This document shows, in pieces, positions 32 to 8,773 of a DNA stretch of 64,000 nt. The notes beneath the pieces were generated by a model. It searched no databases. It had not been told where the DNA came from and saw only the letters and a list, made by a program, of their open reading frames with translations. Origin of the DNA: Treponema sp. (GTDB taxonomy: Bacteria; Spirochaetota; Spirochaetia; Treponematales; Breznakiellaceae); contig JAIRPD010000041.1 of assembly GCA_031257195.1 (NCBI GenBank), positions 1-64,000 on the forward strand, written 5' to 3'. Positions within the stretch are counted from its first letter, which is position 1, and each line of letters starts with the position of its first letter. Made by a program: the position numbers and the translations under genes.

Positions 32-778
32 TTACGCGACAGTCAACTCCGGTTCCGCTTTAATAGCGCGGGGTTCCTTGAGCAGCGTACTACTGTGCGA
101 ATGTTGCGTTACAATTTCCAGCGTGTATTTCCCGGCGCTTAAGGAGGGCGCAAGCGCGACCACTTCGACAGGGCGGTTAACCGCAAGGTTTTCGGCTACT
201 TTGGTCCGCGCCCCGTCCGCCGCGCTCACAAACCACACGCCGCAGGCGGCGTCCGTTCCCTCGACCTTGATTTTATGCCCTGTGATATGAACCATTCCTC
301 CGGGGGTAACAGCGCTGTTGAGCGCCCCGCTGTGCGCGTCCGCCACCTCGTCTATAAACGCCCCGTCTCCCGCCGGCCCTTCGTTTTCCACCTGTATCTG
401 CGAGAGCAGGGTTTTAAGACGGGAAAGTTCGCGGAAGGACACGGCGATTTTGTCCGCGCCGATAACATCCCGCTCGCTGTTGTACGTCCCGCCGATGCGG
501 GTGTGGAGCGAAAAATATCCGCCCACCTGTACGGAAAAGCCGTCCAGCAGTTGGTAGACCATCTCGTTGATAAAGACATGGGTATGCTCTACCAGGTCTT
601 CGTACTGCCCGGTAAATCCGCCCCGGTTCTTGGCGGACGCGCATACGTCCTCGATAGAGAGCGGCGCTTCCGCCTTGCTGCGGGCGACATACGCGCCTTC
701 GCCTTTGCCCAGATAGTTGGGGTAGAGCTTCGCCTCGATTTTGTGCAGGACTTCGGTAACTTCATTCATTACTGCCAT
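32..778 (-). CDS. HU-like DNA-binding protein with C-terminal DUF4469-like domain
   Basis: The N-terminal ~115 residues resemble the IHF/HU-like fold used by the DUF4469 family (LYPNYLGKGEGAYVAR, then a helical part rich in HTHVFINEMVYQLL). The C-terminal part (residues ~160-245) looks like the beta-rich DUF4469 domain (GGMVHITGHKIKVEG). It probably binds DNA; its specific role is unknown. I chose ATG 778 because GGAG sits 7-9 nt upstream; in-frame ATGs at 802 and 814 lack a good ribosome site. The stop is TAA at 34-32. Base use is less GC-extreme than the following genes. Transcription probably starts near 1207, giving a roughly 430-nt leader packed with repeats and hairpins. Confidence 0.75.
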   Translation of the reverse strand: MAVMNEVTEVLHKIEAKLYPNYLGKGEGAYVARSKAEAPLSIEDVCASAKNRGGFTGQYEDLVEHTHVFINEMVYQLLDGFSVQVGGYFSLHTRIGGTYNSERDVIGADKIAVSFRELSRLKTLLSQIQVENEGPAGDGAFIDEVADAHSGALNSAVTPGGMVHITGHKIKVEGTDAACGVWFVSAADGARTKVAENLAVNRPVEVVALAPSLSAGKYTLEIVTQHSHSSTLLKEPRAIKAEPELTVA

Positions 779-918
779 TTTGGTCTCCTTTTGGTTTGTC
801 ATAGCGGGGTTCACACCCGTAAGCGGTGTATGTTTTGAGGGAGCGGGGTTCGGGGCCCGTCCGTCTCGCGGGATTGCATAGAGGCTGATAAAAAAGGGGA
901 AATAGCGCTGTTAGGGGG

Positions 919-946
919 TTGACAAAGTGAAAAGCGGCCCCATAAT
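919..946 (+). promoter_or_regulatory. Sigma-70-like promoter facing into the heptamer array
   Basis: TTGACA (919-924), 16-nt spacer, CATAAT (941-946). It points toward the 7-bp repeats and away from the HU-like gene, so a transcript starting near 953 would be antisense to that gene's leader. No coding gene follows on this strand. Confidence 0.5.
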
Positions 947-947
947 T

Positions 948-1037
948 GCCTGTCGCCTGTCGCCTGTCGCCTGTCGCCTGTCGCCTGTCGCCTGTCGCCT
1001 GTCGCCTGTCGCCTGTCGCCTGTCGCCTGTCGCCTGT
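948..1037. repeat. Perfect heptanucleotide tandem array, 12.9 copies of GCCTGTC
   Basis: Twelve full units and six bases of a thirteenth, with no mismatch. Such a short perfect unit is prone to slipped-strand copy-number change. It lies in the probable 5' leader of the HU-like gene (read as ACAGGCG on the minus strand). Three units make 21 bp, so in any frame it reads as a seven-residue peptide repeat, but I see no real gene across it. Confidence 0.95.
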
Positions 1038-1040
1038 TGG

Positions 1041-1159
1041 GGCAATTCGCTTCGCGAATTGCCTCGGAGTTTGCCGCGGGCAAACTCCACGCGGGCGCTT
1101 GCTGGTGGAGTTTCGGGCTTGCCCGAAACTCCGAGGCAATCCGCCGTAGGCGGATTGCC
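1041..1159. repeat. Block of four perfect hairpins in mirror order
   Basis: Hairpins at 1041-1063 (10-bp arms, GGCAATTCGC), 1066-1088 (10-bp arms, GGAGTTTGCC), 1107-1132 (12-bp arms, GGAGTTTCGGGC) and 1135-1159 (11-bp arms, GGCAATCCGCC). The outer two share GGCAAT ends and the inner two share GGAGTTT ends; the joining dinucleotides TC and GA are also complementary. GCCTCGGAGTTT (1061-1072) pairs with AAACTCCGAGGC (1127-1138), so the whole block can also fold as one large stem. Confidence 0.9.
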
Positions 1160-1213
1160 CTGCCTGTTGGGAGAGGTCCGCTCCAACGCCGGGGCCCTAT
1201 TCATAGCAACGTC

Positions 1214-1243
1214 ATTGTAGCCGATAGCGGGATAATATGTCAA
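1214..1243 (-). promoter_or_regulatory. Probable promoter of the HU-like gene
   Basis: On the minus strand: TTGACA (1243-1238), 18-nt spacer, TACAAT (1219-1214). Predicted start near 1207, downstream of the uvrB stop and about 430 nt before the HU-like ATG at 778. The leader would include the hairpin block and heptamer array. Confidence 0.55.
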
Positions 1244-5438: not shown

Positions 5439-5447
5439 GCCCCGGGA

Positions 5448-5594
5448 GAGGCTCCCTTCGGTGTGGGAGAAGCTCCCTTCGGTGCGGGAGGGTCTCCCTT
5501 CGGTGCGGGAGGTTCTCCCTTCGGTGCGGGAGGGTCTCCCATCGGTGTGGGAGAGGCTCCCTTCGGTGTGGGAGAGACCCCCATCGCGGTATGA
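5448..5594. repeat. 21-bp tandem array A, six good copies plus decayed ones
   Basis: Consensus gaggctcccttcggtgyggga. Units start at 5448, 5469, 5490, 5511, 5532 and 5553; the copy at 5574 is degenerate and traces continue to about 5640. Each junction contains CTCCC and GGGAG around a TTCGGTG core, so every unit can form a small hairpin. It fills the 327-bp gap between the barrel terminator and the CDF gene. Confidence 0.9.
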
Positions 5595-8383: not shown

Positions 8384-8773
8384 GATTCCCCGGTTGTAGT
8401 GAGTGACTCCCCGGTTTTTGCGAGCGATTCCCCGGTTGTAGTGAGCGGCTCCCCGGTTGTAGTGAGCGGCTCCCCGGTCGTAGTGAGCCGCTCCCCGGTC
8501 GTAGTGAGTGGCTCCCCGGTTGTAGTGAGCCGCTCCCCGGTTGTAGTGAGTGACTCCCCGGTTTTTGCGAGCGATTCCCCGGTTGTAGCGAGCGGCTCCC
8601 CGGTTGTAGTGAGTGATTCCCCGGTTGTAGTGAGCCACTCCCCGGTTTTTGCGAGTGATTCCCCGGTCGTAGTGAGCCACTCCCCGGTTGTAGTGAGTGG
8701 TTCCCCGGTTTTTGCGAGCCGCTCCCCGGTCGTAGTGAGTGATTCCCCGGTTGTAGCGAGCGGCTCCCCGGCC
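8384..8773. repeat. 21-bp tandem array B, about 18.5 copies
   Basis: Consensus g-ctccccggttgtagtgag-, starting at 8384. Copies differ in a small set of cassettes: GGTTGTAGTGAG, GGTCGTAGTGAG, GGTTGTAGCGAG and, in units 2, 9, 13 and 16, GGTTTTTGCGAG. It has the same period as array A but a different sequence. It lies in the 671-bp gap before hexokinase. Reading frames stay open on both strands because 21 is a multiple of three; I do not regard them as genes. Confidence 0.95.

Follow-up and report, generated by a model that had tools for sequence, protein, structure and literature searches.

Organization of the leader region

The window (the whole stretch of 64,000 nucleotides that was analyzed) begins at a contig end, so that the block described here lies close to the assembly edge. 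The first gene, on the minus strand, encodes a protein of 248 aa (32-778; ATG at 778-776, with the SD sequence AGGAG upstream). An earlier note on this DNA had called the gene HU-like, which agrees with the HU-DNA_bdg domain found in this ORF; however, a DUF4469 domain is added and the protein is not a plain HU.

The 5' region of the HU-like gene carries two facing promoters, located where the earlier note had placed them. P1 (TTGACA-18-TACAAT; 1214-1243, minus strand) reads towards the HU-like gene, while Pm (TTGACA-16-CATAAT; 919-946, plus strand) is convergent to it, and both are presumed to fire. Each matches at 11 of 12 positions, and they were the only sigma70-like sites detected in 700-1400, where shuffles gave an expectation of 0.1. 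P1 is kept in the paralog C49 and has equivalents in relatives, in which counterparts of Pm are also kept. An A6 tract resembling an UP element (890-895, plus strand) is located 23 nt upstream of the Pm -35, and such a tract occurs in about half of the Pm sites. A third copy of the P1 region, 92% identical, was found at a contig end (L083:1-91), indicating that the assembly breaks in this repeat.

Next to Pm lies the perfect heptamer array of 12.9 GCCTGTC units that had been reported before (948-1037, plus strand; 100% match), which reads GACAGGC on the leader strand. The Pm -10 ends 1 nt short of the array, so the predicted Pm transcript would begin within the repeats. On the minus strand, an upstream open reading frame (uORF) of 97 codons in its present state (911-1204) starts with an ATG 9 nt after the P1 -10, crosses hairpins and array, and stops just past the array ('OFF' frame). 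An alternative 'long' frame beyond the array (762-945, minus strand) ends with a TGA at bases 15-17 of the HU-like gene (+17); a different repeat number modulo 3 would be needed to enter it, and its openness is not significant when taken alone (190 of 500 shuffles). The array thus adjoins the Pm -10 and also sits in the uORF, a placement where its length can affect the promoter or the reading frame.

A dispersed palindromic element within the array

All four hairpins of the earlier note, with arms in the order GGCAAT, GGAGTTT, GGAGTTT and GGCAAT, were present. Hairpin 1 (GGCAATTCGC-TTC-GCGAATTGCC, GGCAAT; 1041-1063), hairpin 2 (GGAGTTTGCC-GCG-GGCAAACTCC, GGAGTTT; 1066-1088) and hairpin 4 (GGCAATCCGCC-GTA-GGCGGATTGCC, GGCAAT; 1135-1159) were obtained by hairpin search and folding, and hairpin 3 (GGAGTTTCGGGC-TT-GCCCGAAACTCC; 1107-1132) is a member of a dispersed GGAGTTT family. 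The number expected by chance in the window was 0 for the GGAGTTT pair and 0.12 for the GGCAAT pair, of which no shuffle had two. The predicted RNA fold of 1038-1165 had an energy of -77.7 kcal/mol (z = -7.8 against shuffles). The description of the block as a palindrome of palindromes applies to its feet and linkers, which are mirrored (the arms 1054-1072 and 1126-1144 are 95% complementary), but not to the inner stems of the mirrored hairpins, which differ. A 9-bp direct repeat, GCCTGTTGG, was read from the sequence on both sides of the block, at 1032-1040 on the array side and at 1162-1170 on the P1 side (both plus strand), and the same arrangement is seen in C49. The copy at 1162-1170 may be either a remnant heptamer unit or a target duplication.

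The GGAGTTT palindromes numbered 67 in the window's own genome, compared with seven for a reversed control, and formed the largest long-stem class (25 of 127 in 500 kb, with 18 in total expected under a Markov null). Their inner stems are variable in sequence while pairing is kept. Those of the window are arranged as an inverted doublet that lies within the heptamer array and has GCCTGTTGG on either side. Palindromes were also found at the equivalent place in C93, C115, L331, L339, L341 and L342, and related composite hairpins in G046. Judged from these sequences, the hairpins are a separate dispersed palindromic element inserted into the heptamer array. No Rfam family matched the block above its gathering score (best 20.4 bits, gathering 39). 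Two further intergenic regions (L060:98-322 and L047:945-1826) contained 100-bp units in tandem as well as mosaics made up of many kinds of palindrome.

Dispersed extragenic palindromes arranged as inverted doublets, here around a spacer, are also characteristic of REPIN/BIME elements (PMC3116915). Unlike in those, the inner stems vary with complementarity kept, and searches with PF01797 and a related Y1 protein gave no match to a cognate Y1/RAYT transposase in the own genome, which is 91% complete. The palindromes were therefore not classified as REPINs. An origin through Y1/RAYT was rejected also because Y1-rich relatives were not palindrome-rich where both were counted; G013 had only six of these palindromes despite at least 78 Y1 copies. 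The Y1/IS200-like transposase was represented by at least 78 scored copies (235 candidates) in this relative (L359), by at least 78 in G042, 27 in G023 and 17 in G010.

The earlier note had also proposed a mobile palindromic element that landed in the promoter region. This holds for the hairpins, whereas array and promoters are a separate layer, present without hairpins at most loci. That the whole block of promoters, array and hairpins was inserted as a mobile element upstream of the HU-like gene would fit the dispersal of the palindromes, the 9-bp flanking repeats, the composite hairpins in G046 and the presence of cassettes before unrelated gene families. We regard it as highly improbable: hairpin-free cassettes are common, no Y1 transposase was found in the own genome, mobility fits the hairpins only, and paralogous cassettes are homologous well into the gene (1.6 kb in L187/L347, for example), which points to gene duplication.

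Heptamer arrays in the genome and the family

A tandem-repeat search covering about 1.63 of the 2.5 Mb of the own genome identified about ten loci with perfect 7-bp arrays. Their units differ, but nearly all read ACRGNNN on one strand: CAACAGG x5 in C49, CCACGGA x7 in C45, TGAGCCG x16 in C3, CAAGAGC in C40, TTCTCCG in C57, GGCCACA in C81 and CACGGCT in both C93 and C115, while the arrays of C4 and C96 both end in TCCGTTC/GAACGGA x17. Apart from ACRG the unit sequence appears unconstrained. The omega-type heptad operator of plasmid pSM19035 consists of contiguous WATCACW heptads; this candidate was rejected, the units here being ACRGNNN. Tandem repeats of 21 bp also abound here (93 TRF rows in the genome), including 5443-5576 and 8387-8771 of the window with six and 18 copies, respectively.

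Within the family, 65 of 120 genomes, from 41 of 57 genera, carried arrays of the ACRGNNN class, and several members had none. In a sample of the order, the class was commoner in the window's family (28 of 48 genomes) than in other families (about 13 of 101). It is not exclusive to the family, as shown by these 13 or so genomes and by a Synergistales contig with the coding layout described below. Arrays of 117-121 bp terminate contigs in several genomes, suggesting that longer arrays were probably cut by short-read assembly.

A recurrent leader cassette

The earlier note had held that a lack of related copies elsewhere would speak against its proposal; such copies clearly recur in related genomes. 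The usual order is P1, the ATG of a leaderless-type uORF, the heptamer array, the convergent Pm and an SD-led gene on the P1 strand. Pm is typically a near-perfect sigma70-type promoter (TTGACA/TATAAT) with its -10 adjoining the array, and its spacer is 19 nt in 18 of about 30 sites, which is poor for sigma70. A promoter of at least 11/12 adjoined the array edge in 13 of 31 family arrays, compared with one of 62 control arrays from a scan for ACRG heptamers, mainly in other phyla; at random positions of the own genome this was so in 5 of 20,000 cases. When AGGTACTTGACA-N14-20-TATAAT was searched with no array required, sites were found in 12 genera and control matches were zero. Heptamers (2.7 to more than 17 units) directly followed about 18 of 30 Pm sites, and some others had a single unit. 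In L353, TTTG tetramers replace the heptamers behind Pm, upstream of a lipoprotein gene.

Nearly all leaders with a recognizable P1 have exactly 6 nt between its -10 and the ATG; this gap is 9 nt in the window and 8 nt in C49. The uORF recurrently starts with MLLKPAGNKTAH, giving MFQVMARHK and similar peptides, and is open into the array. Transcription starting 6-7 nt past the P1 -10 would place the AUG at or near the 5' end of the mRNA. A gene start followed Pm at 78-649 bp in the P1 direction at 20 of 37 Pm sites, compared with five in the Pm direction; the sites without such a gene mostly had too little room or no detected start.

The genes behind the cassettes encode lipoproteins, orphan TDW proteins, HU-like proteins and, in one case, a PTS protein. 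TDW is a multi-copy orphan family of about 220-240 aa, found behind cassettes in L192, L348, L356, L357, L130 and L189, and a Pfam search of the TDW protein gave no match. The HU-like gene behind the C93 cassette (L140:10743-11100) appears frameshifted and is possibly a pseudogene. The suggestion that the leader serves a nucleoid protein specifically was thus not upheld. The companion idea of a copy-number-variable leader held in part, as the block makes up the 5' region of the HU-like gene and cassettes with other units and copy numbers stand before many genes of relatives. The feature in the window is genuine and belongs to a leader type that recurs and apparently lacks a published description; literature searches retrieved no paper on phase variation for these bacteria. 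Three aspects were beyond the reach of the earlier note: the uORF of leaderless type, the conservation of the cassette, and the consequences of a 7-bp unit for the reading frame.

Reading frames and array turnover

Of the three frames past the array, two usually end at Pm or close to it, and the remaining one is often open to the gene start. Relative to that start, the long frame stops at +17 in the window, L192, L356 and L357, at +8 in L130, at -1 in L194 and at -13 in L348. The long frame of L335 and L353 coincides with the frame of the gene itself. In L189, uORF and TDW protein form a single reading frame of 377 aa, in which TDW also has its own SD-led start.

Only two of 12 uORFs are currently in the long frame, a near-random proportion, so there is no general need for this frame to be translated. 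The idea that the leader ORF is conserved as coding sequence was rejected: its codon positions displayed no third-position excess and no sign of purifying selection, indicating that the amino-acid sequence is not conserved. Openness of the leader is aided by in-frame 21-bp repeats, which appear in heptamer leaders as 7-residue repeats, and the frame that is open is determined by homology in the Pm region. Taken together, these results suggest that the frame is possibly relevant and that the peptide is unlikely to matter.

The near-random frame status and the missing codon-position signal would also be expected if frame were irrelevant and the repeat number acted as a promoter-distance rheostat, tuning the interference between convergent promoters or the length of an antisense RNA, as hmw1A is tuned by 7-bp repeats. 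At most loci the Pm -10 adjoins or overlaps the first repeat, as in the P2 promoter of hmw1A in Haemophilus influenzae, where the -10 shares bases with the first repeat (PMC8262952). However, this would leave the fixed 6-nt gap between P1 and ATG and the recurrent uORF start to be explained otherwise, arrays of this class within coding sequences act through the frame, and L189 is fused in frame. We consider a pure rheostat rather unlikely.

Coding-embedded arrays of this class were found at the starts of genes for a carbamoyltransferase, an acyltransferase 3, lipoproteins and others. At the present copy number, five are in frame (ON; L196, L201, L211, L213 and L293) and three are OFF, with 35 aa instead of 483 in L184, 17 instead of 493 in L188 and 30 instead of 210 in L110. 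L293 (5325-5382) is the Synergistales contig, with (GCTCACA)8 at the start of a membrane protein resembling a sugar transferase; TTGACA/TATAAT lies at the array edge here too, and the layout is the same in this different phylum.

Comparison of paralogs revealed turnover of the arrays. L187 and L347, which come from the same genome, share 89% identity over 1608 bp but carry ACAGATC x14 and ACAGCTC x7, respectively. Next to the array, the identity between the window and C49 is 94%, but the array itself has GACAGGC x13 in the former and five CAACAGG-type units, including an imperfect one, in the latter. Unit number therefore differs between otherwise similar copies, as in simple sequence repeat (SSR) contingency loci, and presumably also varies within the population. 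The whole unit has been swapped with the flanks retained, as expected for slippage and homogenization. When orthologous arrays were sought for a comparison of copy number within a genus, no close ortholog was found in the genus of G042.

Slippage could also expand arrays in a neutral hotspot, with no regulatory role, where convergent transcription or an ancestral ACRG sequence destabilizes the DNA. Heptamers are over-represented in many bacteria for unexplained reasons (PMC4692102), several family members have no arrays, and the unit is free apart from ACRG. Such a hotspot seems improbable to us, since Pm, P1 and the orientation to lipoprotein, TDW and HU-like genes are conserved across genera, and the same units start carbamoyltransferase, acyltransferase and lipoprotein genes with ON and OFF states.

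Comparison with known repeat systems

In hmw1A and hmw2A of H. influenzae, 7-bp promoter repeats with the unit ATCTTTC lie between two tandem promoters (PMC8262952). The cassettes are similar in having 7-bp repeats between two promoters, a -10 at the first repeat (as for Pm in the window) and a surface gene. They differ in that the promoters converge instead of reading in the same direction, the units vary by locus and an ATG-initiated uORF crosses the array.

Features shared with translational SSR contingency loci are the array near a start codon, a unit length that is not divisible by 3, the occurrence of ON as well as OFF frames, and the acyltransferase, carbamoyltransferase and lipoprotein targets. 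In the window class, unlike in those loci, the repeat is in an upstream reading frame and not in the gene, and an antisense promoter is present. An AUG at or near the predicted 5' end, upstream of an SD-led start, resembles the 5'-uAUG mRNAs, which carry a 5'-terminal AUG upstream of a conventional SD-led gene (PMC4965119); unlike in those, the uORF here holds a repeat array that can change its frame, and its 5' ends are predicted ones. Dispersed intergenic heptameric SSRs that vary in length and sequence between relatives are known from Xanthomonas, Nostoc and Calothrix (PMC4692102). The arrays described here are likewise intergenic, dispersed and variable between relatives, but the former are G-rich, and the sampled arrays of other phyla were nearly all without the promoter edge.

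Proposed mechanism and significance

We favor, with moderate confidence, the reading of the region as an SSR contingency leader in which array length sets the frame of the uORF and the antisense promoter adds interference. It draws on the anatomy, its recurrence in many genera, the gene orientation, the array turnover between paralogs and the frame consequences, which are all properties of the sequences themselves. P1 would transcribe a leader beginning with or near a 5'-terminal AUG, and the uORF would be translated through the heptamer array. Two frames would stop at or shortly past the array; the third would continue to the downstream SD-led gene, overlapping its start codon or, in some relatives, fusing with it in frame. 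Translation of the downstream gene could thereby be coupled, blocked or extended depending on repeat number. Pm would initiate in the repeats and read back across uORF and P1, causing antisense interference dependent on repeat length. The hairpins would be a dispersed palindromic element that landed within the array. As a length of 7 bp is not divisible by 3, every slippage event would shift the uORF frame, and gain or loss of one repeat probably switches or tunes the next gene. For the HU-like gene, the direction of this effect is an inference, the uORF stopping early in its present state.

More tentatively, and with less than even confidence, the cassettes may constitute a family-wide class of switches, in which slipping heptamers pick the frame for a leaderless uORF, which in turn is coupled or fused to a lipoprotein, TDW or HU-like gene or blocks it, with the Pm antisense RNA starting inside the repeats. 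With the cassette, the combination of uORF frame switching and antisense transcription becomes open to test, as does, in the window, the invasion of a repeat array by a palindromic element. Because the cassette can be recognized from sequence alone, a catalog of phase-variable genes could be drawn up for a whole family in which most genomes are uncultured. If the family-wide switch is true, many copies per genome with private units would provide a large combinatorial repertoire of surface states for these uncultured bacteria.
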